A stretch of DNA of 64,000 bases from Methanomicrobia archaeon JdFR-19 (GCA_002010075.1 MTMG01000008.1:50149-114148), one strand, 5' to 3'. Numbered from the stretch's first letter, positions 1,761-49,722 are shown. Notes: a model not told the origin generated them from the sequence alone. Numbers and translations are program-made.

Positions 1761-2453
1761 ATGGTGTCTACACACATATCATGGGATGAAAATGGAAACA
1801 TAGATTTTGGGTGGTGGGAGCCCGTATATGAATAGATTTTGAAGGACATGGGTTTCAGTAGAAAGGATGATGAGAATTCGGCACGGTTGTTGTCAACCAT
1901 GGCTCTTGCTGATTCGTGTATCTTAAAAACAATTATCACGAGAGATGTAATCGTGTGTGGAGATGCAAAAGTTCTCAAAAGACACATCGAAAAACTAGAC
2001 AAGAATGAGAGTAATGGAAGGGTGATTATTAGTGCAGATGGTGCGACATCGAAACTGCTTGATGCGGGTTTGATTCCAGATATAATCGTGAGCGATCTTG
2101 ATGGGTGTGTTGAGGACATATTAGAGGCTAATCGAAAAGGAGCTGTTGTCGTTGTGCATGCTCACGGAGATAATATCCATCTGGTTCGTGATCATGTTCC
2201 AGCACTCACAAATGTGGTCGGAACAACCCAGTCGAAGCCTTTTGACACAGTGTACAACTTCGGTGGCTTCACAGATGGAGACAGATGTGCTTATATGGCA
2301 ACAGCATTCGGAGCAAATAACATCCTCTTGCTTGGCTTCGACTTTGATGATGCAAGCGTGTCGTATATGAAGAGGAAAAAGCTTAGATGGGCTTCTTACT
2401 TGCTCTCAATTCTCTCAGAGGTTGTTGATGTGCAGTGGATGGAGGTTTGTTGA
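1761..2453 (+). CDS. mptE: 6-hydroxymethyl-7,8-dihydropterin pyrophosphokinase MptE, with in-frame TAG
   Basis: MptE (DUF115 family) activates 6-hydroxymethyl-dihydropterin with ATP in tetrahydromethanopterin synthesis. The frame holds a TAG at 1833-1835 (codon 25). The sequence is continuous across it: WWEPVYE, then TAG, then ILKDMGFS, matching the family N-terminus of form W.P.Y..IL.DFGFS. Later motifs are ISADGATSKLL, DIIVSDLDG, HAHGDN, NFGGFTDGDR and LLGFDFD. Without readthrough the protein would start at a TTG at 1839 and lose the WEP segment. ATG 1761 sits at leaderless distance from a TATA box, giving 230 residues, the usual MptE length. Its TGA overlaps the hisS start (TGATG), so the two are co-transcribed. 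Confidence 0.9.
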
Positions 2454-3667
2454 TGATAAGGAGACCAAGAGGAACGAGGGATTTTGACCCAGAGGAGATG
2501 AGAAAGAGGCGTCATGTGGAGTCGATAATGAGGGATATTGTGGAAAGATGGGGATATGAGGAGGTTCTCACTCCAACATTCGAACATATCGAGCTATTCA
2601 CGATAAAATCTGGTGAAGAGATAAGGAACGAGATGTATGGGTTCATAGACAAAGGAGGGAGAGAGCTCGCCCTCCGCCCAGAACTTACCGCACCCGTTAT
2701 TAGGATGTATGTGGAGTCGATGGAGAAAAAACCAAAACCGCTGAGGTTGTATTACTTTGGAAACTGCTTCAGATATGAGCGCCCCCAAAAAGGAAGGTTC
2801 AGAGAGTTCTGGCAGTTCGGAGTTGAGCTGATAGGTGGCTCGGAGGTATATGCAAATGCAGAGGCGATAGCACTTGCACACACAATCCTCAGCACCGTGG
2901 GTTTAGAATGCCCTGTACGACTTAGCCATCTTGATGTGATGAACAAGCTTCTCTCTCAACTTTCTGAGGAACAGCAGAGAAAGGTGCTGAGGCAAATCGA
3001 TAAGAAGGAGACGAACATCGATGTTGAAGAGCCTCTTCTCTCATCTATTCGGTCTCTGCTCTCTCCAATGGAACCACACGAGGCGATTGAGGTTGCATCA
3101 GACATTGCACCTTGTGAGGGATTGAAAACTCTCTCAGAACTTGTGGAACTACTTGAATGTTATGGAGTTCCTTATCAAATCGATTTCAGTATTGTGAGGG
3201 GGTTGGAATACTACACAGGCATAGTTTTCGAGATGTATGCAGAGGGTCTTGGTGCTGAGAATCAGGTGTGTGGTGGTGGTTCGTATTCTCTTTCAGAGCT
3301 TTTTGGAGGGGAGAGTATTGAGAGCTGTGGGTTTGGTATAGGATTTGACAGGGTGATGGAGATATGTAAACTTGAGCCCCCCACGAGAACCAAATTGGTG
3401 GTTGTTAATGCTGGAGCGTATGATTATGCTGTAATGGTATCAAAGTTGTTGAGAGAACAGGGTGGCAACTTTTCAGTTGAGCTTGATGTTATGGAAAGAA
3501 AGCTCAGAGAACAGCTTGAGAGAGCAAACACAATTGGGGCGAAGTATGCCATTGTAGTGGGAGAGAGAGAGCGAAAGGAGAAGCTCGTGAGTTTGAGGGA
3601 TATGGAGACAGGAGAACAGACAAAGCTGAGCATTGATGAGCTTGTTAAGTTTGTACGCAACTTATAA
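2453..3667 (+). CDS. hisS: Histidyl-tRNA synthetase
   Basis: This class II synthetase charges tRNA-His. The 404-residue protein shows the N-terminal RGTRDF, motif 2 (RYERPQKGRFREFWQFGVE), the histidine-binding GLEYYTGIVFE near residue 250, motif 3 region GGGSY...GFGIGFDR, and a C-terminal anticodon-binding domain. An in-frame GTG lies 18 nt upstream, but ATG 2453 follows a GGAGG site (2441-2445) at 7 nt, overlaps the mptE stop, and gives the normal N-terminus MIRRPRGTRD. It ends in TAA. Confidence 0.95.
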   Translation: MIRRPRGTRDFDPEEMRKRRHVESIMRDIVERWGYEEVLTPTFEHIELFTIKSGEEIRNEMYGFIDKGGRELALRPELTAPVIRMYVESMEKKPKPLRLYYFGNCFRYERPQKGRFREFWQFGVELIGGSEVYANAEAIALAHTILSTVGLECPVRLSHLDVMNKLLSQLSEEQQRKVLRQIDKKETNIDVEEPLLSSIRSLLSPMEPHEAIEVASDIAPCEGLKTLSELVELLECYGVPYQIDFSIVRGLEYYTGIVFEMYAEGLGAENQVCGGGSYSLSELFGGESIESCGFGIGFDRVMEICKLEPPTRTKLVVVNAGAYDYAVMVSKLLREQGGNFSVELDVMERKLREQLERANTIGAKYAIVVGERERKEKLVSLRDMETGEQTKLSIDELVKFVRNL

Positions 3668-3720
3668 CCTTAACCCACCTAATCACTACTAAATCTAAAA
3701 ATAAATCAAAAAATAGATAA

Positions 3721-3760
3721 TATTATATACAACCACTTTAAAATCTCTTTCAAGAGGTGG
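3721..3760 (+). promoter_or_regulatory. Histone promoter and ribosome-binding site
   Basis: A TATA element (TTATATAC, about 3723-3730) in a very AT-rich gap is followed about 25 nt later by GAGGTGG (3754-3760), five bases before the TTG start. This implies a very short leader that carries a strong Shine-Dalgarno, fitting a highly expressed chromatin gene with a TTG start codon. Confidence 0.55.
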
Positions 3761-3765
3761 TTTGA

Positions 3766-4005
3766 TTGGCAAAGAGAAAGACAATAATTCCTCTTGCATC
3801 TGTTGAGAGGTTAATTAGGGAAGTAGGCGGAGGAAAGGTGAGAGTCAGCGAAAGTGGCAGAGCGACACTTGCGAAGATACTCGAAATGTACGCAAGAGAT
3901 GTGGCAGAGGAAGCAATAAAACTCGCACATCACGCAAAGAGGAAGACCGTCAGAGGAGAAGACGTTGAACTTGCCTACGAGAGAGTTTACAGAGGCATAA
4001 GATAA
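3766..4005 (+). CDS. Archaeal histone
   Basis: This 79-residue protein is a single-domain HMf-type histone that wraps DNA. It runs through the complete histone fold: PLASVERLIREVG (helix 1), RVSESGRATLAKILEMYARDVAEE.. (long central helix) and KTVRGEDVELAYERV (helix 3). It starts with TTG, supported by the GAGGTGG site just upstream, and ends in TAA. The HD gene follows 16 nt downstream with its own AAAGGAGGAG site, so the two may share a transcript. Confidence 0.95.
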   Translation: MAKRKTIIPLASVERLIREVGGGKVRVSESGRATLAKILEMYARDVAEEAIKLAHHAKRKTVRGEDVELAYERVYRGIR

Positions 4006-4021
4006 AGGAGGAGTAGTATAA

Positions 4022-5206
4022 ATTGGGGAGAAAGTCGTTATAAGGGATTCTCTGTATGGGCATGTTGAAGTTGAGGAGGTGGCTCTATCAATACTTGATT
4101 CTCCTCAACTTCAACGCTTGAGAAGAGTATCTCAGCTTGGATTTTGTTCACTCGTCTATCCTTGTGCCAATCATACTCGGTTTGAACATTCTCTCGGAGT
4201 TTATTATCTTGCATCAAGGCTTTCAAAGAGGTTAGATGACATCTCAGAAGATGAGCTTGTCGATTTTAGGTTGGCATGTTTGATTCACGATGTGGGTCAT
4301 CCACCATTTTCACATACGTTCGAAGATATCCTTTTCAGGTATGACGGACTTCACCACACTGACATACTCAAAATTTTTGGAAGGTGTGAGATGGCTGACA
4401 TACTCAGTGAGCATGGTATCTCGCTTAGAGTAATCGAAAACATGGTTCATGGCAATGGTATGTTTGGCCCTCTGTTATCGAGTGAAATAGATTTAGACCG
4501 CATGGACTATCTTAGGAGAGATGCGTACTATACTGGAGTAGGGTATGGGCTTGTTGATGTGGAACATCTCCTACACGAGATAGCTCTGAAAAATGGCAGG
4601 GCGGTTATAGGTAAGGGGGGGTTGCATGCGGGCGAGTCCCTCCTCATCTCAAGGTTCCTCATGTATCCAACAGTATATGCTCACCATGTTCCGAGAATCG
4701 CCGGATGTATGCTTTCTCATGCTCTCTCAGAGATGCTTGAAGAAAAGGAGCTGAAACCAAATGAGGCGAGGATGATGTGTGATTGGGAATTGTTAGAAAG
4801 CATGAGGGGTAAGAAGATTGTTGAGGATGTGTTGAGAAGAAGACTCTACAAGAGAGCGTTATTTGTGGGGCTGAAAGATGTTGGTGAAAATGTGGTTGAA
4901 TACAGGGGGAGGGAGAGAAGATTGGCATACGAGATAGCTGAAGAGGCAGGAATTGAGCCAGAAAACGTTCTGGTTGACATCCCTCCATACCCAGAAATGG
5001 AGGAGAAGAGAGCAAGGATTGAAATAGCAGAAGGGGAGTTCAAGCAACTCTTTGAGTTATCCCCTCTCGTGAGAGCTCTCGAGAAAGCCCATATCGAAAG
5101 TTGGAGGATGGGAGTGTATTCTCCCAAAGAATATGTGGATAGGGTGTCAAAGAAAGCAAAAGATATTTTAGGTGTCTCTTCTTCGGTACAGCAAACACTG
5201 TGGTGA
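4022..5206 (+). CDS. HD-domain phosphohydrolase, probable ATT start
   Basis: This is a 394-residue metal-dependent HD phosphohydrolase of the dGTPase/SpoT-like superfamily (COG1078). The metal site is visible as HTRFEHSLG (about residues 57-65), LIHDVGHPPFSH (about 90-101) and a later SEIDLDRMDYL. The first usable ATG/GTG/TTG in frame is GTG 4079, but family homology clearly begins earlier (VIRDSLYGHVEVEE matches the usual I.DP.HG.IE.. start). The frame closes upstream at TAA 4019-4021, leaving ATT 4022 as the likely start, 8-9 nt after AAAGGAGGAG. The substrate is unknown. It ends in TGA. Confidence 0.82.
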   Translation: MGEKVVIRDSLYGHVEVEEVALSILDSPQLQRLRRVSQLGFCSLVYPCANHTRFEHSLGVYYLASRLSKRLDDISEDELVDFRLACLIHDVGHPPFSHTFEDILFRYDGLHHTDILKIFGRCEMADILSEHGISLRVIENMVHGNGMFGPLLSSEIDLDRMDYLRRDAYYTGVGYGLVDVEHLLHEIALKNGRAVIGKGGLHAGESLLISRFLMYPTVYAHHVPRIAGCMLSHALSEMLEEKELKPNEARMMCDWELLESMRGKKIVEDVLRRRLYKRALFVGLKDVGENVVEYRGRERRLAYEIAEEAGIEPENVLVDIPPYPEMEEKRARIEIAEGEFKQLFELSPLVRALEKAHIESWRMGVYSPKEYVDRVSKKAKDILGVSSSVQQTLW

Positions 5207-5210
5207 TGAT

Positions 5211-6371
5211 ATGAAACGACTTGAGGGGAAGAAGATAGTTGTGGGGGTGAGCGGAAGTATAGCTGCAGTGAAGTGTGTTGAACTCATCAGAGAGCTCAGA
5301 AGGAGAGGGGCAGAAGTTTTTTGTGTGATGAGCGAGGAAGCTCAGAGAATAATACATCCGAACGCCCTTGAATATGCTTCTGGGAACAAGGTTGTGTGTG
5401 AGATAGGAGGGGGGGTCGAGCATGTCAGTCTGTGTATGGAATGTGATTTATTTTTGATAGCTCCCGCAACTGCAAATACGATATCCAAGATAGCTTGTGG
5501 CATAGCAGACACTCCAATCACAACGTTTGCAACATCTTTCCTAAAATCTCCCTCCTCAGTTGTAATAGCTCCAGCAATGCACGAATCGATGTTTCAGAAT
5601 CCAATCCTTGCTGAGAACATCAAGAAGTTGAAATCATTCGGAGTTGGATTTGTGAATCCTGTTGCTGGGGAGGGAAGTGCGAAGCTTGCACCCACCCCCA
5701 CAATCATTTTAGAGGTTGAGAGGGCTATTTTGAAGGGAGAGCTTTCTGGGAAAAAGATGGTAATAACAGCGGGTGCGACCACCGAACCAATCGACCCGGT
5801 GAGGGTGATAACAAGCAGAGCATCTGGAAAGACAGGGATTGAAATAGCTCTTGAGCTGTACAGGAGAGGGGCAGATGTTGTACTGATTTCATCTGTATCG
5901 CCCCCATTTGATATCCCGTTCAAATTCGTATATGTCGAGAGTGTTGAGGATATGCTCAACGCTTGTTTGGAAGAGTGTGGAAAAGGGTGTGATTTACTCA
6001 TTTGCTCGGCGGCAGTGTCAGACTTTGTACCCTCTTATTTCGAGAGCAAGCTGTCTTCTGATAGAGAATTGACAATAAAACTCAAACCAGCAAAAAAGGT
6101 GCTTGCTGAAGTAAGGAAAAGCTTTCCTGACTTACCCATTGTTGGATTTAAAGCAGAGACACATGTGAGCGATGAAGAACTCGAGAAAGAGGCAAATCAT
6201 CTAAAAGAGAAATATTCACTCCTGATGGTTGTTGCGAACGATGTTGGCAGATTCAGGATGGGGGAGGATTACAATCGAGTCATCATACTCTCTGACAGGA
6301 AGAGGATTGTTGATGGAGCAAAGGATGTAGTTGCTTACAATATAGTGAGCGAACTCGTTAGATTGATGTAA
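5211..6371 (+). CDS. coaBC: Bifunctional phosphopantothenoylcysteine decarboxylase / phosphopantothenate-cysteine ligase
   Basis: This Dfp fusion makes 4'-phosphopantetheine for coenzyme A. The CoaC flavoprotein half holds GSIAAVK, the active-site histidine segment VEHVSL and PAMHESMFQNP (about residues 1-180). The CoaB ligase half holds ITAGATTEPIDPVR.IT, ASGKTG and the lysine motif LKPAKKVL (about residues 183-386). ATG 5211 is chosen over a longer in-frame start because it gives the standard MKRLEGKKIVVGVSGS N-terminus just after the HD stop codon. It ends in TAA and is probably co-transcribed with the HD gene. Confidence 0.95.
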   Translation: MKRLEGKKIVVGVSGSIAAVKCVELIRELRRRGAEVFCVMSEEAQRIIHPNALEYASGNKVVCEIGGGVEHVSLCMECDLFLIAPATANTISKIACGIADTPITTFATSFLKSPSSVVIAPAMHESMFQNPILAENIKKLKSFGVGFVNPVAGEGSAKLAPTPTIILEVERAILKGELSGKKMVITAGATTEPIDPVRVITSRASGKTGIEIALELYRRGADVVLISSVSPPFDIPFKFVYVESVEDMLNACLEECGKGCDLLICSAAVSDFVPSYFESKLSSDRELTIKLKPAKKVLAEVRKSFPDLPIVGFKAETHVSDEELEKEANHLKEKYSLLMVVANDVGRFRMGEDYNRVIILSDRKRIVDGAKDVVAYNIVSELVRLM

Positions 6372-6408
6372 GAAAAACTTTTTATCAGAATTGGAATAGG
6401 TTGGTAGG

Positions 6409-7488
6409 ATGTACCACACCATGTACAACTCTGTGATGGGTTTGGAGGACGGCACGATAGTGTATGGTTGTTCTGTCGGGGCCGAGGGTGTTGTTTGTGG
6501 AGAGCTTGTATTCACAACCCAATTCACCGGCTATGAAGAAGCTCTCACTGACCCATCGTACAAAGGGCAGATTCTGATGTTCACTTATCCCCTCATAGGA
6601 AACTATGGGGTGAGTGGGAGGAAGTTTCAGTCAGATGGAATAAAGGCGGAGGCAGTGGTTGTGAGGGAAGCCTGTCAGTCTCCGTCTCATTACACCTCCC
6701 AGCTAACGTTCAGAGAGTGGCTCAAAAAAGAAGGAAAGGTTTGTATTGAGGGTGTGGATACCAGAGAATTGACAATAAAGCTGAGAAGTTATGGAACTCT
6801 GAGAGCATGCATAATCACGAACTCCCTCGATGGTGAGGAGGCGGTTAAGCTTGCCAGACGACATCCTATGATTTCAGAACTTGAACTCGTGAGTGATGTT
6901 ACTTGCCCAGAACATTACGTGATTGGGAAAGGTGATAAGAAGATAGGTATCCTCGATTTGGGTGTGAAACGGAATATAATAACGAATGTTCTGAAAAGAG
7001 AGTGTGAAGTTCATGTATTTCCAGCAGACACCTCTCCTGATGTTATTGTTGAGAGTGAGGTGGATGCCCTTCTCATTTCAAATGGTCCTGGAGACCCAAA
7101 ACGGGCAAAGAATGCCATAAGGTGTGTGAAGGAGATTGTAGGGCAGATTCCCATTTACGGGATATGTTTCGGACATCAGATAATCTCTCTCGGGCTTGGT
7201 GGTGACACGTACAAGCTGAAATTTGGTCACAGGGGTGCCAACCAACCTGTCAGGGACTCAGATGGAAAGGTGATGATAACTTCTCAGAACCATGGATTTG
7301 CTGTTGATGAGTTTTCGTTAGATGGAACAGGACTTGGAGTTAGCTATGTGAATCTGAACGATGGGACGGTTGAGGGCGTGGAGTGTCGTGAGTTGATGGT
7401 GAAAGCTGTTCAGTTCCATCCTGAAGCCTCTCCCGGACCACACGACAGTGAAGCATTCTTTGATAAGATTGTGAGGTGTGAGTTCTAA
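6409..7488 (+). CDS. carA: Carbamoyl-phosphate synthase small subunit
   Basis: CarA is the glutaminase that feeds ammonia to CarB for arginine and pyrimidine synthesis. The protein is up to 359 residues. The N-terminal CarA domain ([29 protein letters not shown]) is followed by a class I amidotransferase with the nucleophile in [10 protein letters not shown] and the His/Glu pair in [12 protein letters not shown]. Three in-frame ATG codons (6409, 6421, 6436) are possible; the last gives the tightest match to family length. The TAA overlaps the carB ATG (TAATG), showing coupling. It lies 37 nt after coaBC. Confidence 0.95.
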
Positions 7489-10400: not shown

Positions 10401-10685
10401 AAATTTCTGCGGGAGAATGGATTTCAGACAGATGAGATAAACAAGGTTTCAGAAGGACACCCCAATGTTGTTGATTTGATAAAAGAGGGAAAAATCCAGC
10501 TTGTAATAAACACGCCAACAAGCAAAATGGCAGTCAGAGATGGATATGAGATAAGAAGAGCCGCGGTTGATTACGACATACCATACATAACAACAATACA
10601 GGCTGCCCAAGCCGCCGCAACTGCAATAATTGCAGTAAAGAGCGGAAAACTTTCAGTTGAACCCATAACTAAGTACCATGGATAA
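7488..10685 (+). CDS. carB: Carbamoyl-phosphate synthase large subunit
   Basis: The complete 1065-residue synthetase has two homologous ATP-grasp halves and a C-terminal regulatory domain. The N-half begins [16 protein letters not shown] and has [11 protein letters not shown]; the C-half repeats this with [17 protein letters not shown] (near residue 550) and [12 protein letters not shown]. The MGS-like allosteric domain occupies about the last 130 residues ([21 protein letters not shown]). The intact single chain is notable because some archaea split it. It ends in TAA; the next gene is convergent after 14 nt. Confidence 0.97.
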
Positions 10686-10699
10686 TTCACATAGATAAG

Positions 10700-11110
10700 T
10701 CAGGTTGTTTCTCCCAATGATTTTGCTATCTCTTTTATGATATCACTTGCACTTATCACTCCAACCGGCCTTGTACCACACCCCATTCTCTCAGAGAGAA
10801 CGAGGAGTCTGTGTACTCTTCTCTTTACCATGTGCCTTGCAGCCTCTTCCAGAGTGGTTGTTGGCTTTAACGATTCTATGTGAGGCGTCATGATATCTTC
10901 TGCAACTGCATGTTCGAGTTGCATCCTCTCATAAGCCTCAAGAATATCCATCTCAGAAATCACACCTGCAACACTCCCATCAGGATACACAACTGCAACC
11001 GCAGATACGTTGTACTCGGCCATTGTCTTGGCAACCTCAATAGCTGGCACGTCCCAGCTGACGGTCACAACTCCCCTTGTCATTACATCTCTTACCATTT
11101 TCTGTTTCAT
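10700..11110 (-). CDS. CBS-domain pair protein
   Basis: This 136-residue protein consists of two tandem CBS motifs (VRDVMTRGVVTV..., then AEDIMTPHIESLKP...), which usually form one Bateman module binding adenine nucleotides. Each ends in the typical GVIS.MDI / GVISASDI strand. No catalytic or DNA-binding domain is attached, so it is probably a ligand-sensing subunit for an unknown partner. Its ATG overlaps the stop of the TatD-like gene (ATGA), so both come from one leftward transcript. It ends in TGA. Confidence 0.85.
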   Translation of the reverse strand: MKQKMVRDVMTRGVVTVSWDVPAIEVAKTMAEYNVSAVAVVYPDGSVAGVISEMDILEAYERMQLEHAVAEDIMTPHIESLKPTTTLEEAARHMVKRRVHRLLVLSERMGCGTRPVGVISASDIIKEIAKSLGETT

Positions 11111-11964: not shown

Positions 11965-11970
11965 CACTTT

Positions 11971-11982: not shown

Positions 11983-11999
11983 CAGTGTTGTTAGTATAT

Positions 12000-12608: not shown

Positions 12609-12613
12609 TAGTG

Positions 12614-12892: not shown

Positions 12893-12898
12893 GGCGGT

Positions 12899-22965: not shown

Positions 22966-23580
22966 TCAGTTGTTTAAGAATCTCTTACATGTCTTCCATG
23001 ATGCCCTTGCGAAGGGGGGCAGCTCTCCCTTTTCTCTTACCCATTTTTCAAGAAATCGAATAGTTTTTACGTCGGTTGCGTACCCACTCCCAACCTCACC
23101 GTATATCTTTTTGATTTCCTCTATCTCCATGTCTCTCTAAACCTTTGCTACTATGGATGCTGCAGATACGACTGGAATCTTCTCATCTGCTTTGTGCATG
23201 CTTATTATCTTGATTTTCCGACCCACCAGCTCAGATATTCTTTTTCCGAATCTTTCAGCATTAACATCAGCTGCATCCACATATGCAACATCCACTCCCT
23301 TCACCAGATGTGCAAATGCATGAACCATAATCCAGTCCATACTCATTTCCTCTCTCATCTTGTCTATCTTCTGTGGAGAAATCTTCAGAACTCTTGTCTC
23401 AAACTTTTCCGTTATCTCCTCACAGATTTTTTTCCTTTTTTTTGGAGAGAGCTTTTTCGAGTCCCTCACGCCCATCTTCCTCAGCTCTTCCATTTCATTC
23501 TCATTAACAACAACACATGCAACACACATCGGCCCAAAGACAGGACCTTTTCCTGCCTCATCCACTCCCCCAATTTTCAT
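22966..23580 (-). CDS. rnhB: Ribonuclease HII, with in-frame TAG
   Basis: RNase HII removes RNA from RNA-DNA hybrids. The first 147 codons give GGVDEAGKGPVFGP (catalytic Asp-Glu), the DSKKLSPKKR motif, YVDAADVN and SAASIVAKV. Codon 148 (complement of 23137-23139) is TAG. The same frame then reads RDMEIEEIKKIYGEVGSGYATD, followed by GELPPFARASWKTC, exactly the family C-terminal region, and stops at TGA. The complete protein is 204 residues, the normal archaeal length. Truncation at TAG would remove the conserved GSGY.TD..T and SWKT segments. The ATG overlaps the znuB stop (ATGA); rnhB is the last gene of that operon. Confidence 0.92.
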
Positions 23581-35156: not shown

Positions 35157-36134
35157 ATGGATAGTATGAATAAAATATCGCTTTGCTTCTATGCACATCA
35201 GCCAACAAGACTTAGGAGGTTCTATCCACTCGAAGGATACCTTTCTGAGCTTTCCCGTTCTCTTTATTTTGACATTGCTCAGGATTATTCGGTGTTTATG
35301 AGGATGAATTATGAAAAGGCTTTGAATCACATATTAGAGTGGCTGGAAAAGGATAGCGTGAGTTTATGTGTATATGTGAGTGGGATATTCACAGAGCAAT
35401 GTACTTGGTCTCCCGAGCTGATGGAGATACTGAAGAGAGTTATGAAAATCGCAGAACCTGTTTGCTCTCCGTACTATTACTCTCTCTCATGTTTTTATCC
35501 CCTCCTCACAGAGTTCTGCCATCAGGTAAAACTCCATATTTCCAAGATTGAGGACATATTTGGAAAGAGTTCGTCTGTTTTCGTCAATCCTCATTTGACA
35601 TACACACCTGAGCTCAACAATGTGTTGGGAGACATGGGGGTGGATTACGTGATTGCAAGGCACGGTGAATTTACGGGAAAACAAGATACCTCAGCCCCCC
35701 CAAAATTAGTATCACCCAGGATGTATGAAGATAGGAACTGGTCTGGAGGAGTTCTTTGGATGGATCTCGCCTCGCCCAATATATACTCTCTTCCGGATGA
35801 GATTGAGAGGAGAGGAGTTGATATTGTGCCGATATGGGAGCTTGCTGAGAACTCTGGTGGTAGAGAAAACAACTGTATCTCTCCCATCTCGCCATCACAC
35901 CCCTCAAAAACATTAACCCAGCCCCCCCTCAAGAACCATGCTCAGAGTCTCTTTTATTATGAACTCTCGTCGTTATGCACCTACCCGATGTCTTCCCTCG
36001 AGAGAGACATATACGGGAGACTTCAGCAGTTTGATATACTGCTTGAGATGGGCTCTCCACCCCCCACCTCAGTGATATACACATTGAATGCACTTTCTAT
36101 TTTATCTGACTTCAAAAGAAGGTTGTGGAGGTGA
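35157..36134 (+). CDS. GH57-family paralogue lacking the catalytic glutamate
   Basis: The 325-residue protein aligns by eye with the GH57 amylase directly downstream: region 1 FYAHQP, then YYYSLSCF, VFVNPHLTYTPEL and a shortened C-terminal half with WMDLASPNIYSL. At the position of the catalytic nucleophile (FRNTEL in the neighbour) it has FVNPHL, so Glu146 is replaced by His146. The Glu of the neighbour's LLGETYYHS is also lost, and the C-terminal part is about 70 residues shorter. It is probably a non-catalytic carbohydrate-binding or regulatory partner rather than a decaying gene, since the frame is intact. Two in-frame ATGs (35157, 35166) are possible. It ends in TGA. Confidence 0.75.
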   Translation: MDSMNKISLCFYAHQPTRLRRFYPLEGYLSELSRSLYFDIAQDYSVFMRMNYEKALNHILEWLEKDSVSLCVYVSGIFTEQCTWSPELMEILKRVMKIAEPVCSPYYYSLSCFYPLLTEFCHQVKLHISKIEDIFGKSSSVFVNPHLTYTPELNNVLGDMGVDYVIARHGEFTGKQDTSAPPKLVSPRMYEDRNWSGGVLWMDLASPNIYSLPDEIERRGVDIVPIWELAENSGGRENNCISPISPSHPSKTLTQPPLKNHAQSLFYYELSSLCTYPMSSLERDIYGRLQQFDILLEMGSPPPTSVIYTLNALSILSDFKRRLWR

Positions 36135-36138
36135 AGAG

Positions 36139-37332
36139 TTGGCTGATTCGTTGTGTATGTACTTTCAGCTCCACCAGCCATGGAGACTGAAATGGTTCTG
36201 GCCCGGAGACCCCTATGACAACAGAGAACGTTATTTTGATTATCCTCTAACACGTTCGATATTTGAGAAGGTTGCATCAAGATGTTATTTTCCAGCTACT
36301 CAACTCCTTCTCGATATGGTAAGAGAACACGATTTCAAATTCTCTCTTTCGATCACTGGTACCCTTATTGAACAGTGTGAGTTGTGGGAACCAAAACTGA
36401 TAAGGCTGTTTGAAGACCTCGTCTCGACAGAGAAAGTCGAGTTATTGGGCGAGACTTATTATCATTCACTGTCATCTCTGTTTGAAGATAGAGCAGAATT
36501 CAGGGATGAGATTTAGGAACATAGAAATGCACTCCTCAAATTAGGATACGAACCCACAGGATTCAGAAATACCGAACTTGTATACAACAACTCGATTGCC
36601 TCACTTGCCTGTGAGATGGGATACAAGAGTATTATGACCGAAGGAGTGGGGTGGGTGCTTGGTAATCGTTCCCCCAACCATGTTTACAAGGCAAAAGGTT
36701 CAAACATCAGGGTGCTACCGAGAAACTACATGCTTTCTGATGATATAGGGTATAGGTTCTCTGCAAAATGGTGGAGTGAGTATCCACTCACAGCAACGAA
36801 ATGGGCTCAATGGGTTGCAGAGTGCGAGGGTGATGTAGTTTTTGTGTTTATCGACTATGAAACGTTTGGAGAACACCATCCACAAGACACTGGTATCTTC
36901 GATTTCTTACGTCATCTTCCGACCGAGCTTGAGAGAGCTGGTGTAAGTTCTCTCACCCCATCAGAGGTTGTTGAGGAGTATGCACCTGTGGGGGAAATCG
37001 ATGTGCCCGAATTCAGCACGATATCTTGGGCAGATAGTGAGAGGGATGTGAGTGCTTGGCTTGGCAATGAGATGCAGAGAATGTGTTTTGAGGAGGCAAA
37101 GCTACTCAGACCCTATGTGATTGAGAGTGTGCCAGAGCTCGTCTGGATATGGAGAAGACTTCTGACATCAGACCACCTCTACTATATGAGTACAAAAGCA
37201 CTTTCGGATGGCGACGTCCATGCATACTTTAGCACCTACCCTTCTCCATTTGATGCAGCGCTGAACTATATGGCTTGTGTATGTGATTTAAAGGCAAAGG
37301 TATTTAGAGAAAAAGCAGAGAGGATGAAATAA
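36139..37332 (+). CDS. GH57 alpha-amylase-like glycoside hydrolase, with in-frame TAG
   Basis: This 397-residue GH57 enzyme should act on alpha-1,4-glucans in the cytoplasm. It has region 1 FQLHQPW, LLGETYYHS, the nucleophile segment GFRNTELVYNN (Glu146) and the acid/base region FIDYETFGEHH. Codon 126 (36514-36516) is TAG, between EFRDEI and EHRNALLKLGYEP. The amylase fold needs both sides, and the family reads straight through here. The start is TTG 36139, 7 nt after GGAGG (36127-36131) in the end of the preceding gene. It ends in TAA with ATG of the next gene immediately after. Confidence 0.88.
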
Positions 37333-38169
37333 ATGGATAATAAATAGATCAATAGGTTGAAAGAGGAGTTGGGGGAGAAATGGGAGGGGAGAGATGTTGC
37401 ATTATGGCACAGAGGAAAAACACTTGCATGGTTGAAGATTCTGACTTTTGATAGGATAGGGGTTGTGCATCGAATCAGTGATGTACTTGTTTCTCATGAT
37501 GTGAACCAGAGGTTCGGTTATTTCACAGCTTTTGACAAAAACGGTAAGTATGTGTCTCTTGTTGAATTGCCTCCGAACGTTGATGTTGTGGAGCTTGTGA
37601 ATGAACTAAAGAAGGTTGATGATGTTTTGGATGTGGAGTATGAGCTCAGAGAGGGATTTTGCTTCCAGAACAATGAGTTCCCCCTCTATATTTTGGGTGA
37701 GAGGGCTGTAATCTTCAGGGCGGAAATGATATCAGAGCTGTTTGGGATGATATCTGCGACTTTCCCGCAAGCAGAGGGTTTCATGAATCTGTGTGGTATG
37801 AAAAGTGGTGTGAGAGTTGCACAGATTATCGAGGGAATGATTGAAGTTGAGCCAAGCAAGAGATTGAAGCTTCTTGAGGAAATAGTTCCTTTTGTGGGCT
37901 GGGGAAGATGTGAAGTAGTTTTTGAAAGCCATGGAAGTGAAGGAAAAGGTGAAGAATCTTTTTCACTTGCGATAATCACACACGATTCATTCCTAACGAG
38001 TTGTATAGAGTCTCATCATCCGGTGTGTGTTTATCTGGGTGGGTTCTATACAGGATACGTGAGCTATGTGTTGGGTAGAAGGGTATACGCTCGTGAGACA
38101 ATGTGTATGGCGAAGGGAGACCCGTACTGTTAGCATGTGCTTAAGAGTGTTAGCAAATTTGATAAGTAA
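37333..38169 (+). CDS. ACT-V4R ligand-sensing regulator, two in-frame TAG codons
   Basis: The N-terminal half resembles an ACT domain (LKILTFDRIGVVHRISDVLVSHD, residues about 32-110). The C-terminal half is a V4R (4-vinyl reductase) domain (GMKSGVRVAQI, then VFESH, GGFYTGYVSYVLGR and CMAKGDPYC), a small-molecule-sensing fold. TAG occurs at codon 5 (37345-37347) and codon 267 (38131-38133). Reading the second gives CxHVL after GDPYC, as V4R domains normally continue with a short strand, and ends at TAA 38167-38169 (278 residues). If the first TAG is not read, the start would be TTG 37357; ATG 37333 has a GAGAGG site. It probably regulates the glycogen cluster. Confidence 0.75.
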
Positions 38170-38186
38170 TTTTGTGGTTGATTAAA

Positions 38187-40025
38187 ATGGAGCTAAGACA
38201 TCCGAATGCCATCATCGGAAACGAGAGCACACTTGTGGGGGTTGGTGAACGAGGGGAGATATTCTGTTTATTCGCCCCCAGAAAGGATTAGTCCCAACAC
38301 GTTCATGACCTTCTTTTCTGTGTGCATGATGGCACGCCACACTGGACAAACGACCCAGAATGGCATACACATCAGAATTATGTGGGGGACAGTGCTGTCC
38401 TGAGAACAGAGCTTTATCGCAATGGCATGAATCTTGAGTTTTTGGATTTTGTGCCCCCTCATCTTCCCGTATTTGTGAGAAGGGTGAGAATAACCTCGGA
38501 CACAGAGTTCTCTGGAAAGCTATTTTGTTATGTTGATTTGAATGTATGCGAGAGGACGGAGAAGAATGCAGCGTATTATTCAAAGCCAATGTTTGTTCAG
38601 TACTGGCACAAGTATTACATTGGTGTTCTTCCCTCCCCTCCACCAGACGAATGGCAGGTTGGAAAGCTACTCCATCGCATGTGGTGGGTGGATGCCAGAC
38701 AAGAGATTGAGGAAGGAAAGCTTGGGGGATTACTGGAAAATTTGGGGAATGTGAATGCAGGTTTGGGATGGAGGTTGGAGCTATCTCCAAATGATGTTTT
38801 TGAGCTTTATCTCTATGTTGGATATGCAGAAAAGAGAGGTATAGTAGAGAGTACATTACAAGGAATCGAATTTAAACCATTGTTAGAGAGAACTTTGGAT
38901 TATTGGAGAGGAGTTATGTCCTGCCCATCAACAATCTTATCTGGTTCACACCTTCCTATCTCCGACCTTCCTCTTTCATACAAAAAGCTCTACAACCGCT
39001 CAATAATCACTTTGCACCTCTTGTTAGATTCAGGTGGAGGCTTCATAGCCTCTCCCGAGTTTGACCATTACTATGAGGTTAGTGGTGGGTATGGTTATTG
39101 CTGGAACAGAGATGGCGTGGAGATGGCAAGAGCGTTGTGGAAGGCAGGGTTTGAACATCCACTCATATCATTTCTAAGTTGGTGTAAGAGAACACAACTA
39201 CCCAATGGTTCATGGTTTCAGAGATACTGGCTCGATGGTGAGCCAGCTCCTTCATGGGGGAATTTTGAACACTCAACACAGCTCGATGAGACCGCATCCA
39301 CAGTCCATTTAATGGCGAAATATGCACTCTCACTGCCAGAGGAGAGGAAAAAAAGTTTTATGAGGTCTTATGGAGGGTGCATAGAGAAAGCTTGCGATTA
39401 TCTGATGGAAAAAACGTCTGACACCCTTCACGATCCCTGTATAGATTTGTGGGAGAGTAGTTATGGTGTGTTTACATATACAACTGCATCGATCATCGCA
39501 GCTCTACGAGATGCTGGCACCTTCATGGATAGGGAGGATTGGGTTGGGAAGTCTGAGCATCTAAGAGAAGGGATGGAAGAACTTTGGCTAGGGGATTATT
39601 ATGCGAAGGGCATGGTGGATGAAGAGTTGTGTGAAGAGACAGATGCGAGCATACTCGGTACAATCACACCTTTTGAGATAGTTGGGGGAGATAAAGCTCT
39701 GAAAATTATTGATAGTGTTGAGAGAAATCTGGGTGTCGAGACTGCGAAGGGAAGAGCAATCAAGAGATACGAGAGTGATGGGTATGTGGGAGGAAATCCA
39801 TGGGTTGTAACAACGCTTTGGCTTGCAAAAGCCATGCTCAAATTGGGTTTGAGGGATAGAGCTATGGAGTACATGGAATGGGCCTCGAAGACGACCACAT
39901 CCACTGGTCTTCTTGCAGAGCAGGTGAATCTGAGTGGAGAGCCAGTGTGGGCGATTCCGCTTGGCTGGAGTTGTTCTGAGTTCATTGAGTGTGTTATTGA
40001 GGCGACACAACATGTTCGTATTTGA
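38187..40025 (+). CDS. GH15 glucoamylase-like glycoside hydrolase, with in-frame TAG
   Basis: This 612-residue enzyme of the glucoamylase/glucodextranase family releases glucose from glucan ends. The N-terminal beta-domain begins LRHPNAIIGNESTLVGV and is interrupted at codon 35 (38289-38291, TAG) between FAPRKD and SQHVHDLLF; relatives read about RxDYPQHV here. The catalytic (alpha/alpha)6 barrel includes GYGYCWNRDGVEMARAL, NFEHSTQLDETA and DLWESSYGVFTYTTAS. Without readthrough the protein would begin at an internal GTG (38322) and lose conserved N-terminal sequence. Its end overlaps the debranching gene by 14 nt. It ends in TGA. Confidence 0.85.
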
Positions 40026-41853
40026 TTCTCCGGGGCTGGACGAGAGAGAATGGCTCATTACGAATGGCATTGGGGGGTATGCTTCTTCCACACTTGTGTG
40101 TGCAAACACAAGAACGTATCATGGTCTGCTTATTGCATCACTTCCTTATTTGAGGAGGTACATGGTTCTTAGTTCTCTTGATGAGGTTGTTGATGGGCAT
40201 GAACTTGCAACACACTTCTATGTCGGTGCAACCCATCCCCAAGGCTACAAATTGATCAAAAGAGTGGAAGTGATGCCAAAGAAGGTGAGATGGGTATATG
40301 CACTGAGAAAGAACTCGGATGAAAATGTTGTTAAGGAATTGAGTATGTTGCATGGCAGAAACTCGGTTGTTGTTGATTACTGGGTGCCGAGGAGTTCTGT
40401 GTGGGTGAACCCTCTCGTAGGATTTAGGAGCATACATGCCACAATGGAAGACACAACATTCGAACAGATACCACGAAAGCACTCTGTGTATGTAAAGTTT
40501 GGAGGATATGAGCTGAGGTTGTGTGCGAGCAGAGGCGCATATCACCCAGAGGGTTGCATATACTACAACTTCAGATACCCAAGAGAGGAGGAAAGAGAAT
40601 TGAACAGTGTTGAGAATCTTTTTTGTCCTGGAGCATTTATTTTGGAGGATGTTGAATCATTCAGAATAACAGCTACTTTTGTGAATAGCAGTGCGTATAA
40701 TACACTCAATATCGACTCTCACCAACGTGATTCGTAGTTCGTTGTTAGAATACCGCACACAACCATAATTGCGGGATACCACTGGTTTTCTGAGTGGGGG
40801 AGAGATGCGTTGATATCTTTACCGGGATTGACTCTTGTTTAGGACAGATTTGATACTGCCAAGCAAATCCTTTCACACTTCTCCTCCCACATCAAAAAAG
40901 GACTTGTTCCACTGTACTTTGACGAGAATGGAACTCCCCATTACAATTCAGTCGATACTTCTTTATGGTTTGTATATGCACTCGATAGGTACATAGACTA
41001 TACGGGAGATGTATCCTTTGGGGTAGAGTTGCTCCCTCGTCTTCTTGAAATCATAAGATGGTATGTAGATGGGACAGACCACGGTATAAAGGTGGATGAT
41101 GACGGACTTGTGTCGTGTGGAGCAAGATTGACATGGATGGATGGGGATGTTGATGGGATGCCAGTGACACCAAGAAATGGGAAGCCATGTGAGGTTAATG
41201 CACTCTGGCACAATGCTCTTTGTGTGGTTTCAGCTCTGTGTGAGGAAGCAGAGAGGGATGTGTGGTTTGGGGAGTACATTGACAGAGTGAGGGAAAACTA
41301 CTGGAAGTTTTGGAATGATGAGTTTGAATGTCTTTTTGATGTAATAGACCCACATGATGAATCTCCAAGGCCGAATCAGGTAATTGGGTTTTTGTTTGAA
41401 TTGAAAAACAATCATAAGTCGAAAAACAATCAGAAAAACATTATCCCACACCCAAAGAAAGTTGTTGAGTTCGTTCAGGAGAATCTTCTAACACTCAGAG
41501 GATTAAGAACGCTTGCTCCGTGGTACAGAGGATATAAGGGGAGGTACGTAGGAGGATGGAATGATAGAAATATTGCATACCATCAGGGAAGTGTATGGGT
41601 ATGGCTTCTCGGACCGTTTGTAAAGGGGTACACTGGGGTAAAATCCACAACACAATTGCCCAAGAAACTTCTCCTTGGCTTTCTCCCACATCTTGAAGAG
41701 GCAGGGATAGGCACAGTCTCTGAACTTTTTGATGGAGACGAGCCCCACATCCCGAGGGGATGTATTTCACAGGCGTGGAGTGTTGCCGAGTTGTTGAGGT
41801 GCTGTGTGGAGGATGTGTAGGGTGGAGCCCCTGAAAGCTGGAGAGCAAAATAA
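40012..41853 (+). CDS. Glycogen debranching enzyme (amylo-1,6-glucosidase), three in-frame TAG codons
   Basis: The N-terminal domain starts [22 protein letters not shown] with the TRTYHGLL motif, typical of archaeal/bacterial AGL-type debranching enzymes. TAG appears at codon 242 (40735-40737), directly before [17 protein letters not shown], and at codon 277 (40840-40842), within LTLV-TAG-DRFDTA. The [22 protein letters not shown] core lies between them. The catalytic barrel continues with [10 protein letters not shown] and [15 protein letters not shown] third TAG (41818-41820) adds ten residues before TAA at 41851-41853. The whole is 613 residues, normal for the family. It cleaves alpha-1,6 branches so that GH57 and GH15 can finish glycogen degradation. 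Confidence 0.88.
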
Positions 41854-41891
41854 ACAAAAAATACTTAACCAACCCAGTAGATATCTCAACG

Positions 41892-44271: not shown

Positions 44272-44282
44272 TGTTTTCATCC

Positions 44283-46991
44283 TCACAACAGTGTTCTAAC
44301 TACATCTTTCACTTCATCCACAGAGGGTATCACTCTCAGTTTTCCCTGAGCAAGCGTTTCATTCCCGCCCCCTCCCCCTCCGAATCTCTTGGCAAGTTCT
44401 CTCATGAATATGGAGGCGTTTATCGTGTCTCTGGGAGAAGCAATTACAATTTTTCCATCCTTTCCAATCTCACACGCAACCACTTTATTCTCACTTGCCA
44501 GTTTTGTCGCCATTTTTATCATCTCTTGCATATCCGTAGTATCCTCAATTCCCACATACAACTTCACACCGTCTACCTCTTCGATTTCGGATGACTTGAG
44601 TTTTGATTTGAGTTCTGCTATCTCCTCCTTCAACCTCTCAACTTCCTTTCTCAACTCCTTCCATTCTTCAAAGAATCTGTTTGCAGTCTGCTCAAGCACG
44701 TCTATCGGGACTGAAAACACCTTTGACGTTCTTTGGAGTATTGTATCCCTTCTCTGTATCTCGTTGATGGCAGCCATGCCTGCTGAAAATTCGAGTCTCT
44801 CAACTCCATCTTGAATTCTTTCAGACCTTATCATTTTGATTGGGCCAATCCTTCCAGTCTCCTCACAGTGTATCCCACCACATGCCTCAACCTCTTCTCC
44901 CACCTTCACAATCCTGATTTTCTCGCCCGGTGGAACCCCACCTTGGTATATTGAGAAGCCGAACTTGTTCTCTGCTTCTGTTCTACCCATCCAGAAAATC
45001 TCGACCCCCTTATCCTCCATCACGATTTCATTTGCCAGTTTTTCAATCTCAAAAAGCTCTTCTTCACTGATTCGTTTGTAGTGAGATATGTCGAGTCTTG
45101 CTCTGTCTTCGAGTTTCTGGGCACCAGCCTGCCACACATGTTTTCCCAACACCTGTTTGGCAGCCCAATTCACTATGTGGGTGGCGGTATGATGTCTTGA
45201 AAGTGCTATTCTTCTTTCTCGATTCACAACTCCTTTAACAACCGTTCCCTTTGGTGGAATTTCACCCGAGACCGTGTGGACTATCACATTCTCATACATC
45301 TGAACATCCACAACTTCACATTTCCCTCCACCCCATCTCAAGGTTCCATGGTCTGCTGGTTGTCCTCCCCCTTCAGGGTAGAAGAGTGTATGCTCAAGCA
45401 CAACATACTTATCAAACGAATCGAGAACAACCGATTCAAATTCGTACTCATTTGGTCTTTCATAGTATGTTCTTTTGGTTGGGGGGAGCTCTCTTATCCT
45501 ATCGATATGTTCGAAAACTTTTATCTCCACTTTCTCCCTTGAGTGTCTCTCAGCAACCAGCGAATAGAAGTTTGCTGGGACCTCCACCTCAACACCATAT
45601 TCATTGGCAACCTCTGAAACAATTTCAGGCGGAATTCCGTGTGTGTCATACATATCTATCAGCTTTTCAGTTCCGATTCTTGCATCCTTCTTCAACATCC
45701 TTCTCAGCATCCCCCTCCCCCTTTCTATTGTTTCCTTGTATTTTTCCTCCTCTCTCTCAAGAACTTCAAGCACGATGTCCCTCATTTCAAGAAGTTCTGG
45801 GAAGTCTTTTAACGAAAGGAGATGAAGGTCAACTATCTCATAGAGTGGGGCAGAGATTCCGAGTTCTTTCATCATCCTGAGCGTTCTTCTTATCACAAGC
45901 CTTGCAAGGTATCCTTCTTTTACATTGGATGGTACGATTCCATCACCCAGCATGAATGCAAGACATCTTGTGTGGTCTGCTATTGCATTTGCAAGCTCTA
46001 TGGGTCTAAGTATCTTTTCAAGCTCTTCGACATCTATCCCAATTTCGGATGCTATGCTTTTCCTCAATTTCTTGAGCTCAACACGACCGCTGACATCCAT
46101 CGAGCCAGCGAGTCTCGCACTCATTGAGGTAATCTCCTCTGCTCTTTCGAGCTCAAGTCCAGCATATTCTGCAACCTTCTCAAGAACATGTGGGAAAGTC
46201 GCTTCGTATATGGTTGAACAACCCTGAGAAGCCCAGACCATTCTCTCAAGTCCGTAGCCGGTATCAACTATGTAGTTCTTCATCCTTCTGTATCTCTCCC
46301 CCTTTATCACAATATCCCCGTGCGGATGTACTTCAAGGTTCATGAACACGAGTGTGGCAATCTCAAGTCCACCGACAAGCACCTCAAGACAAGGACCTGC
46401 ATTTCCACCTCCAGCCCATGGTTCTTCTTTGTATGTCACCTACCCTTTTCGTATGCCGAGCGATTTCAGCAACTCATCACAGAGTGCAACAGTCTCTTCC
46501 TTCCAGTAAATCTCGTTTTCAGGATAGTTGAAGGTGTGGTGTGCCATCATTTCAAATAGTGTGAGATGCCTTCCACTCATCCCCACCGAGTCCAAATCAT
46601 CCAGTCGTATACAGGGCTGGGATATGGTCAATGGGTTGGCTGGGGGAGGAACAAGCCCAGAGGTTACGAATGGCTGGAAGTCTGCTATGGAAGCAATCGT
46701 CAGATATATATCATCTCTCCATCTCGCTACAACCGGGTATCTTTCTATTCTCTCGTGATTCCTTTTCTCGAAGAATGAAAGATAGTACTCTCTCATTTCA
46801 GAGATTGTAAAAGGTTTTGAGAACACTGGATTATCTATAAATGAATACGGGTCACATGGTGCATCTCCACATGTTTCTCTCTTCTCGTCTTGTGTCCAGA
46901 AAAACTTCCCGCACTTAGAACACTTCCTTCTCATGAAATCGTGCTCTTTGAAATAGTTTAGGTCGTACTCATCATCCATATTTCCAGACAT
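44283..46991 (-). CDS. alaS: Alanyl-tRNA synthetase, with in-frame TAG
   Basis: The 902-residue archaeal AlaRS begins [19 protein letters not shown] with the zinc-type CSKCGKFF...CGDAPC insert. Class II core motifs follow ([37 protein letters not shown]), then the editing domain (HHTATH and CGGIHC) and the C-terminal DHHA1-like domain (FGGGGGGNE). Codon 184 (complement of 46440-46442) is TAG. The frame reads [21 protein letters not shown], then [20 protein letters not shown], exactly the family sequence. Neither half could work alone: the alanine-binding site is split. The start has AAGGT upstream. It ends in TGA. Confidence 0.95.
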
Positions 46992-47026
46992 GACAATACC
47001 TTAACAAACTTAAAGTAAATAAAAGG

Positions 47027-47078
47027 AGGGGCAAAATGCCACAGAGGGGATGGATAGATTTTTATGGCGTTTGCCCCT
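47027..47078 (-). terminator. GC-rich hairpin upstream of alaS: terminator or leader element
   Basis: In the 133-nt gap, AGGGGCAAA (complement of 47070-47078) pairs perfectly with TTTGCCCCT (complement of 47027-47035), and an inner GCC/GGC extends the stem to 12 pairs around a 25-nt loop. CCTTTTATTT follows on the minus strand. It could end the kae1 transcript 47 nt after its stop codon. Alternatively, a TATA box at 47099-47110 would place the alaS mRNA 5' end close to the first base of the hairpin, making it a structured leader. Confidence 0.5.
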
Positions 47079-47124
47079 GATATCAATTTTCCTAGATTTT
47101 TATATATAAACCTATCTTCTAAAA

Positions 47125-48099
47125 TTACCAAACAACTTCGACCATCTCTGGTCTGAACCCCGGAATCACACTCGACTCATCAAGAGGAGTTCTAATCCCC
47201 ACCAAAAACATCTTCAATCCGAGGTAAGCTATCATTGTTCCATTGTCTCCCAAATATTTTTTCGCGGGTCTGTAGTACGATACACCTCTGTCCTCACACA
47301 TAATCGAGAGCATTTCCGACAGTCTATCATTGGCACCTACTCCTCCCACCAGCATAACCTCATCAAGGGAAGTATGGGCGAGAGCTCTCTCACTGACCTC
47401 GGTTAGCATTGCAAATGCAACCTCTTGAAGAGAGAAACAGACATCTTCGACTGGGTTATTCTTTACAGCTCTGAGTGCGGATGTCAGAAGTCCCGAGAAT
47501 GCAAGGTCCATTCCCTTCACTGTGTATGGCAATTCTATGTATTTTGATGATTTCTTTGCCAACTCTTCTATCTTCGGTCCACCAGGATGTGAGAGTCCAA
47601 CTTCTCTTGCAAACTTGTCAAGTGCGTTTCCAAGACCTACATCTATTGTCTCTCCAAATATTCTATATCTCTTCTGTTTCAGAGCAAGTATCTGTGTATT
47701 TGCTCCACTTGCATACACAACCAGTGGATTCTCTGCCCCAGTCTCCCATTTTCCAATCTCGATGTGTGCAATACAGTGGTTAACACCCACCAATGGTTTT
47801 TTCAGAAGGAGAGAAAGTGTGCGTGATGCAGTTGCCACCACTCTTAAACATGGACCAAGCCCTGGACCCTGTGAGAATGCTATTGCATCTATCTCATCTG
47901 CACTCACCTTTTCAAAGACTCTCCTCAGCAAATCAGCTATGTGAGAGGAGTGGTGCTGTGCAGCTTCTCTTGGATGTATCCCCCCCTTTTCAGGGATGTA
48001 TGGATGCGAAACCTCGCATATTTCCTCTGTTTCTCCATTTTCCTGTCTGACTACCCCCACACTCAGACTCCATGCTGTCCCCTCTATTCCAAGCACCAT
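47125..48099 (-). CDS. kae1: tRNA threonylcarbamoyladenosine synthase Kae1 (KEOPS subunit)
   Basis: This 324-residue universal protein carries out t6A modification of tRNA within KEOPS. Visible motifs are LGIEGTAWSLSVG, the metal-binding HHSSH and HCIAHIEIG, ASGANTQI, the GNALDKFAREVGL segment and the C-terminal GGVGANDRL. It is not fused to a Bud32 kinase. ATG 48099 is chosen over a TTG 12 nt upstream. It lies 4 nt after the DUF116 stop and is likely co-transcribed. It ends in TAA. Confidence 0.94.
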   Translation of the reverse strand: MVLGIEGTAWSLSVGVVRQENGETEEICEVSHPYIPEKGGIHPREAAQHHSSHIADLLRRVFEKVSADEIDAIAFSQGPGLGPCLRVVATASRTLSLLLKKPLVGVNHCIAHIEIGKWETGAENPLVVYASGANTQILALKQKRYRIFGETIDVGLGNALDKFAREVGLSHPGGPKIEELAKKSSKYIELPYTVKGMDLAFSGLLTSALRAVKNNPVEDVCFSLQEVAFAMLTEVSERALAHTSLDEVMLVGGVGANDRLSEMLSIMCEDRGVSYYRPAKKYLGDNGTMIAYLGLKMFLVGIRTPLDESSVIPGFRPEMVEVVW

Positions 48100-48103
48100 T
48101 ATA

Positions 48104-48766
48104 TCATCCAAGCTCTTCTATGACTTCATAGAACTCTCTCCAGTCCAATAAAGTCTCAACACACCCATCTCTTGTGAGAGGAATACCTAATGTAGGTATA
48201 CCATAAGAACCGCACAATTCAAGTCCCTCTCTTACTTCACGGTTGCACGCAACTCCAATCACTCCCTTTATGTCATATTTCTTTATCATCCTCTTTATCA
48301 CACTTGAGCCAGGTGCAATAAATACCTTGTATCCTTCTTTCTCACTCACTTTCTTTGCCTTGCCTATCTCACACCTTCCGCATCCAATACATTCAACGCC
48401 TTCTGGCGTCAGTCTTGCTGGGCATTCTTTTGACCTCAGACACTGAGGGAAAAATACGGCTCTTTTGTTTTTTGGAACTGCTTGGAGTCTTGGAAGCGAT
48501 ACTCTATTCCTCAATTCAATCCCTATCCTATCCACTGACGAGGAATCGATTGAGAACAGTCTGAGCGTTGGTCTAACTACCCCCTCAAGAACAGATATCC
48601 CAAAGAGCATGAGTCTCGGGAAATAAACTTTCCCTCGCTTGAAGGACAGTGCAATTATGAGTGATATTAGAAAAGTGATAGTGAAGAATATGGCAAGTAT
48701 TACGAGAACCACAAATGCAAGGTCTACAACTATCCTCCCTATTGTGGTATACACAAACTCGTTCAT
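48104..48766 (-). CDS. DUF116 membrane protein
   Basis: The 220-residue protein of the DUF116 family has an N-terminal membrane region (about residues 10-45, one long or two short helices) and a cytoplasmic domain with cysteines FPQCLRSKECPARLTPEG and CIGCGRCEIGKAKK, suggesting an iron-sulfur or zinc site. Its function is unknown. Its ATG overlaps the stop of the COG1665 gene, so it belongs to the leftward group COG1665-DUF116-kae1. It ends in TGA. Confidence 0.82.
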   Translation of the reverse strand: MNEFVYTTIGRIVVDLAFVVLVILAIFFTITFLISLIIALSFKRGKVYFPRLMLFGISVLEGVVRPTLRLFSIDSSSVDRIGIELRNRVSLPRLQAVPKNKRAVFFPQCLRSKECPARLTPEGVECIGCGRCEIGKAKKVSEKEGYKVFIAPGSSVIKRMIKKYDIKGVIGVACNREVREGLELCGSYGIPTLGIPLTRDGCVETLLDWREFYEVIEELG

Positions 48767-49722
48767 TTACACCCCTCCAAAAGAGTAAGTGATCTTATCC
48801 ACTCCCCTTTAGCCTCACGTGTCGTTCCCACAACGAGTTGAATCCCCTTTTCAGTCTCCTCAAGCATCCCTCTTGCCTCGAGGGTCTCCCCCTCAAAAAC
48901 CTGCCCAGCATATGTATGCGTATAGGAGAGAACTCTGTCAACCATAGGATGCTCTATTTCAAATACAGAGGGTGAATCGAACGCATATTTGGCGGACAGA
49001 ACTACTCCTCTTATCGTTCTTTTTTCAACTCTCCGTCTGTGCTTAGGAGGTCTGTACTCTCCTTCCCCCACATACAAGAGGTCGAAGTATGTGTCTTCCC
49101 ACATTGCTCTGTTATACTTTCTCACTTCGTGTATAAGAAACTCTTGGAATCCTATTTCAGGTACTCTTTTTTTGTATATTTTCTGCCATACGTCCTATGG
49201 TATTGGTTTCAGATCTGGTCTGTTTTGGTCGGTTGAAATAGCTTCACTCAAAATTTCTCTTGCTCTCCACCACTCTTTCCCATATACGACCAAATCGATA
49301 TCAGAATTCGCCTGCGATAGCGATGTGAGTCTTGAACCAGTAATTCCCATGCTCTTTCTTCGCACACCCATATCTTCAAGTGTGTCAATGAGTCTACTAA
49401 CCTTTTCATCTTCTTGACACACTCTCTCAAGTTCTTTTTCGGGCCTCAAATACTCTTGTATCTCGTCGTATGGAACAGCAAAAACATCGTACACCCAGCT
49501 GGGGTGGTGTAGTTTCATGTACTCGAAAGCCTCTTCAGTCCCTAACTTTCTGTATCTGATACCCCTCTTTTTGTTCATCCTCTCCCCCTTTTCATCCGGG
49601 ACATACCTCAACATCGCCCTAACACCCTCTCCCCCGCCGTAGTACTCTTGTGGAACATAATCTACAACAGAGAACACAAGCCCATCTTTGGTGAATAGGA
49701 AGTCCCTTATCCTCTGCTTCAT
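48763..49722 (-). CDS. Predicted nucleotidyltransferase (COG1665-like), with in-frame TAG
   Basis: The 319-residue protein contains a nucleotidyltransferase signature (GITGSRLTSLSQANSDIDLVVYG, about residues 123-147) after a mixed N-terminal domain. Codon 176 (complement of 49195-49197) is TAG. The same frame continues DVWQKIYKKRVPEIGFQEFL, HEVRKYNRAM and then a C-terminal beta-rich domain to TGA. The two pieces keep one frame with no other stop, and the post-TAG piece has no convincing start of its own. The combined length suits the archaeal family, whose substrate is unknown. Confidence 0.8.

Follow-up and report, generated by a model that had tools for sequence, protein, structure and literature searches.

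In-frame TAG codons in conserved genes of Methanomicrobia archaeon JdFR-19 suggest a code in which TAG is generally read as pyrrolysine

The analyzed window is a stretch of 64,000 nucleotides from the genome of Methanomicrobia archaeon JdFR-19. An earlier note on this DNA had claimed eleven in-frame TAG codons in eight genes, and all eleven were found at the positions it gave. They are listed below together with the corresponding codon in G001, a second species of the same genus.

1833-1835, plus strand: TAG in mptE (1743-2453), amino acid 31; alignment with a solved MptE spans the codon; TAG in G001.
23137-23139, minus strand: TAG in rnhB (22966-23580), amino acid 148; within the RNase_HII match (5-198); T in solved homologues; no match in G001.
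36514-36516, plus strand: TAG in the GH57 gene (36088-37332), amino acid 143; within the Glyco_hydro_57 match (24-307); GAG in G001.
37345-37347, plus strand: TAG in the ACT-V4R gene (37333-38169), amino acid 5; close to the start and weak when taken alone; TAG in G001.
38131-38133, plus strand: second TAG in the ACT-V4R gene, amino acid 267; within the V4R match (216-271); TAG in G001.
38289-38291, plus strand: TAG in the GH15 gene (38172-40025), amino acid 40; not within a Pfam match; TAG in G001.
40735-40737, plus strand: TAG in the debranching enzyme gene (39934-41853), amino acid 268; between GDE_N and GDE_C; TAG in G001.
40840-40842, plus strand: second TAG in the debranching enzyme gene, amino acid 303; within the GDE_C match (269-622); TAG in G001.
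41818-41820, plus strand: third TAG in the debranching enzyme gene, amino acid 629, 10 codons upstream of TAA; weak when taken alone; TAG and the extension are kept in G001.
46440-46442, minus strand: TAG in alaS (44283-46991), amino acid 184; within the tRNA-synt_2c match (65-592); GAG in G001.
49195-49197, minus strand: TAG in the COG1665-type gene (48763-49722), amino acid 176; within the NTP_transf_2 match (109-179); GAG in G001.

The claim that the frame past TAG continues into the expected protein family also stood. Pfam matches cross a TAG in rnhB, the GH57 gene, the V4R region, the debranching enzyme, AlaRS and the COG1665-type gene. For mptE, continuity follows from the alignment with the solved MptE 8sd5 (residues 21-208), in which the homologue has K at the TAG site. 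Seven of the ten sites that could be found in G001 are TAG there and three (GH57, alaS, COG1665) are GAG; class relatives mostly have Ala at the alaS site. The last TAG of the debranching enzyme gene (41818) may once have been a stop or may still act as one in part. We did not count three more apparent in-frame TAGs (6397, 48118 and 61166), as all of them precede the likely true starts; the earlier note was right to omit them. Seven of the eleven TAGs fall in a single run of sugar-polymer genes (36088-41853; GH57, ACT-V4R, GH15 and debranching enzyme).

The genome itself comprises 1.29 Mb in 27 contigs (89.75% complete). The organism is an uncultured archaeon from an order represented by two genomes, and its class looks to be Methanosarcinia. 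To see how far the use of TAG extends, we analyzed 339 kb of the genome (26%), the window included. Gene calling with table 11 yielded 329 coding segments, ending in TGA (187), TAA (107) or TAG (35). The median frame to the next TAA or TGA is 78 codons past TAG, compared with 15-16 codons past TAA/TGA. Coding-like sequence lies beyond the stop in 22 of 35 TAG-ended segments versus 29 of 294 ending in TAA/TGA (Fisher p ~6e-12), and the first 20 codons after TAG likewise differ from those after TAA/TGA (p ~3e-13). When TAG was treated as sense, the sample gave 318 genes, 60 of which (~19%) hold 80 TAGs in 102,000 codons, a count that takes in a few TAGs near gene starts, possibly upstream of the true start. 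By simple scaling, about 200-230 genes genome-wide would contain TAG.

Approximately 25 TAGs sit within single Pfam domains, among them those of ribonucleotide reductase, DHQ synthase II, NAD kinase, IGPD, ThiN, RNase HII and AlaRS. Domains of aldehyde dehydrogenase and of ADP-dependent phosphofructokinase/glucokinase hold two TAGs each. The presence of TAG in housekeeping genes, proposed at first from alaS and rnhB, is thus borne out for both by domain matches that cross the codon. About 10 of the 35 TAG-ended segments gain short extensions (2-28 codons to the next stop), so that some TAGs may still stop translation. These codons would fit either stops that are still active in part or former stops, past which a short C-terminal extension has arisen, and termination might occur part of the time at a few TAGs near C termini. 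The sample shows that TAG is used as sense genome-wide, and every TAG may be sense. A 616-aa frame with four in-frame TAGs (L003:8241-10091) probably encodes a secreted multidomain phosphoesterase-like protein.

A scan of the named genomes for PylSc returned a sole match, the MAG 'Methanosarcinales archaeon isolate B74_G9' with scaffolds named 'Guay', which is the 59% complete G001 genome. We compared 415 kb of its sequence (~94% DNA identity) with JdFR-19. Of 40 in-frame TAGs aligned to G001, 32 are TAG, five GAG and three CAG. Changes in the reverse direction were seen as well: four sense codons of JdFR-19 (CAG, TCG, GAG and AAG), all in the middle of genes, are TAG in G001. Only four apparent internal TAA/TGA codons occur in the aligned G001 genes, three of them a few codons from the gene end, the fourth in a gene with a gapped alignment. 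At gene ends, TAA and TGA are swapped between the species in 8 of ~90 cases and TAG with TAA/TGA in 0 of 16, a contrast that on its own is not significant (p 0.35). Downstream of TAG the two species differ by 3.0% mismatches and 1.1% gaps, compared with 9-11% and 13-16% after TAA/TGA. The codons downstream of TAG show about 121 synonymous versus 60 nonsynonymous differences, which indicates purifying selection on this sequence. Assembly error had been named as an objection to the reading of TAG as sense; the recurrence of the TAGs in G001, whose genome is independent, speaks against such errors as their origin and excludes them for the conserved sites.

The genes expected of a pyrrolysine system, pylT, pylS and pylBCD, were all found, pylS being split into pylSn and pylSc. 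On contig C6 (L003:7000-8226), tRNA-Pyl with the anticodon cta (L003:7000-7070) is followed by pylSn and pylSc as separate genes. The adjoining pylB and pylC lie elsewhere on the same contig (L013:6155-8355), and pylD is on C18 (L014:1421-2209). The pyl genes are therefore spread over three places (pylT-Sn-Sc; pylB-C; pylD) and do not form a single cassette. All the proteins score above the NCBIfam cut-offs (PylSn 91.8, PylSc 297.9, PylB 417.9, PylC 335 and PylD 218.3 bits), and the tRNA match likewise passes its curated cut-off. None of the genes for these proteins, whether the tRNA-Pyl-linked pylSn and pylSc or pylB, pylC and pylD, contains an internal TAG. Other amber-decoding tRNAs were looked for, and tRNA-Pyl is the only one with a CUA anticodon among 45 Rfam tRNA matches; for three tRNAs that ARAGORN missed or probably misread, inspection by eye gave Ser-TGA, Ser-CGA and Tyr-GTA. 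At ~90% completeness, the genome could hold a further CUA tRNA or a second aRF1 that escaped the search.

In the class sample, PylS scores above the family cut-off in 61 of 120 genomes, namely those of family f3 and the two considered here. PylS frames are 406-553 aa long in family f3, where the enzyme is probably fused, and 282-286 aa in our two genomes. The PylSc sequence is 34-42% identical to the Methanosarcinia enzymes with long frames. The nearest PDB chains are 3dsq and 2zni, which we take to be the split enzyme of Desulfitobacterium hafniense. We found no viral contig with the tRNA-Pyl stretch of JdFR-19. The canonical pyrrolysine methyltransferases have their TAG: MtmB at residue 202, and MtbB and mttB one each. 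A homologue of MtmB without TAG (L022:18666-19994) adjoins the pyrrolysine-type mtmB and mtbB genes; it may be compared with the non-pyrrolysine MtmB that acts on tetramethylammonium and choline (PMC13044021).

The window also encodes the release factor.

58337-59581, minus strand: aRF1 (TIGR03676, 590 bits); no other full-length class-1 release factor turned up in the genome.
59204-59224, minus strand: the YxCxxxF motif of aRF1, here YHCASEF, with Ala where human eRF1 has D128, and with Glu two positions further.

A second full-length aRF1 was not found in a search of the ~90% complete genome, and another aRF1-type match (345 aa) is probably Pelota. Both JdFR-19 and G001 have Ala at the position equivalent to D128, where all 28 class relatives compared and the four solved homologues shown have Asp. 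The TASNIKS-type motif is ordinary (QASNIKS). In human eRF1, mutations in and around YxCxxxF selectively lower the response to UAG; with Y125F, 34% of it remains at UAG, and UAA and UGA keep 100% (PMC4698671). A loss of UAG recognition through Ala in the aRF1 motif is plausible. The accessible literature yielded no test of a mutation of D128 itself, and hence the loss of UAG release in this archaeon is something that we infer.

Overall, TAG is very probably a general sense codon read as pyrrolysine in this organism, with TAA and TGA as stops and an altered aRF1 that might lower release at UAG. The full set of pyrrolysine genes, the sole CUA tRNA, the 339 kb sample and the comparison with G001 all support the genome-wide TAG-to-pyrrolysine code proposed in the earlier note. 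According to this model, PylB, PylC and PylD would make pyrrolysine, the split PylSn/PylSc would charge tRNA-Pyl(CUA), and the charged tRNA would insert pyrrolysine at UAG, termination being left to TAA and TGA. As a weaker part of the proposal, the change in YxCxxxF of the sole aRF1 might lower or abolish release at UAG, and TAG would then no longer be an effective stop. The encoded machinery argues strongly for pyrrolysine as the residue predicted at TAG. At sites outside the methyltransferases, pyrrolysine is likewise the amino acid to be expected, and termination at TAG would be absent.

The alternative that survives best is ambiguous decoding as in Methanosarcina, where TAG would still be a stop and suppression by pyrrolysine would compete with aRF1 to give truncated and full-length products. 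It can draw on the presence of an aRF1 that is normal in its QASNIKS motif, on the short extensions in ~10 of 35 TAG-ended segments, and on M. acetivorans, in which translation mostly terminates at an introduced amber codon (PMC2933860). However, essential genes (for AlaRS, NAD kinase and ribonucleotide reductase, among others) contain TAGs, and no more than ~3-4% of genes could have TAG as their stop. Moreover, the extensions are kept between the species even where they are short, and the YxCxxxF motif of aRF1 is unusual. We therefore regard ambiguous decoding as unlikely. It might also be argued that an unseen suppressor tRNA reads TAG as one of the canonical amino acids, Gln or Glu for instance, since some sites are TAG in one species and GAG or CAG in the other. 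Yet GAG, CAG, AAG and TCG are single-step neighbours of TAG, and all of them are seen. The residue at TAG sites also varies among homologues (A, E, V, K, T, N or H), so that no single canonical residue is implied; the 45 tRNA matches include no further CUA tRNA, and both tRNA-Pyl and PylS are encoded. With variable orthologous residues and no matching tRNA found, we rejected this reading as very improbable. Pseudogenes, sequencing errors or assembly errors might be suspected in fragmented and incomplete genomes, but their probability is negligible: TAGs shared with the independent genome of another species, together with intact selection downstream, exclude decay and assembly error for the conserved sites, and internal TAA/TGA codons are almost lacking.

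Genes for methylamine methyltransferases and CODH/ACS-like genes occur, but mcrA was found in neither genome (JdFR-19 ~90%, G001 59% complete), which suggests that the lineage may not be methanogenic. A more far-reaching version of the main reading would be that a lineage possibly without methanogenesis finished the reassignment through its only aRF1 (with Ala replacing Asp and a Glu two positions further), so that TAG would be exclusively pyrrolysine and pyrrolysine would be needed for growth. We put this version forward tentatively and consider it somewhat doubtful.

If TAG is read in this way, an apparently separate lineage is added to the few with a code of 62 sense codons, along with a two-species comparison in which TAG acts as an ordinary sense codon. 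The candidate change in aRF1 offers a testable answer to the question of how UAG termination is given up. On the practical side, about one-fifth of the genes of this organism would come out truncated or split under standard gene calling, and protein engineering may benefit from a split PylSn/PylSc-tRNA set whose source genome is rich in TAG.

An archaeal 'Pyl code', in which TAG means pyrrolysine across the whole genome, has reportedly been described by Kivenson et al. in Science in 2025. JdFR-19 resembles it in having TAG as sense across many genes together with a full pyrrolysine set. Particular to the present case are an altered aRF1, a split synthetase and, in both genomes, an apparent lack of mcrA; all three are possibly new elements. 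Methanosarcina shares tRNA-Pyl, PylS, PylBCD and the TAGs in mtmB, mtbB and mttB. There, UAG is both stop and sense, and TAG ends ~4-5% of genes (PMC2933860, PMC4153887), whereas JdFR-19 has TAG within ~19% of the sampled genes and a split PylS in place of the fused one. 'Ca. Methanomethylophilus alvus' is similar in that pyrrolysine is predicted in proteins other than methyltransferases (16 extra proteins) and TAG stops are rare (1.6%) (PMC4153887). In contrast, the estimate for JdFR-19 is 200 or more genes, the class is different and PylSn is a separate gene. The Asgard Sifarchaeia are also archaea reported to be non-methanogenic with a full pyrrolysine system for methylamines; their recoding is described as localised and their use of UAG as a stop is unusually high (PMC9723677). 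Ciliates, with their altered stop recognition by eRF1 (PMC12440015, PMC4698671), likewise combine stop-codon reassignment with changed decoding motifs in the N domain. In JdFR-19 the change is Ala for the Asp of YxCxxxF, and its effect is putative. Among archaeal stop codons, just 9 were assigned to an amino acid in the Codetta screen (PMC8629427). Finally, G047, a pyrrolysine-encoding genome from another family of the class, also has an in-frame TAG in its AlaRS gene (C13:108488-111208), possibly an independent spread of TAG to housekeeping genes.
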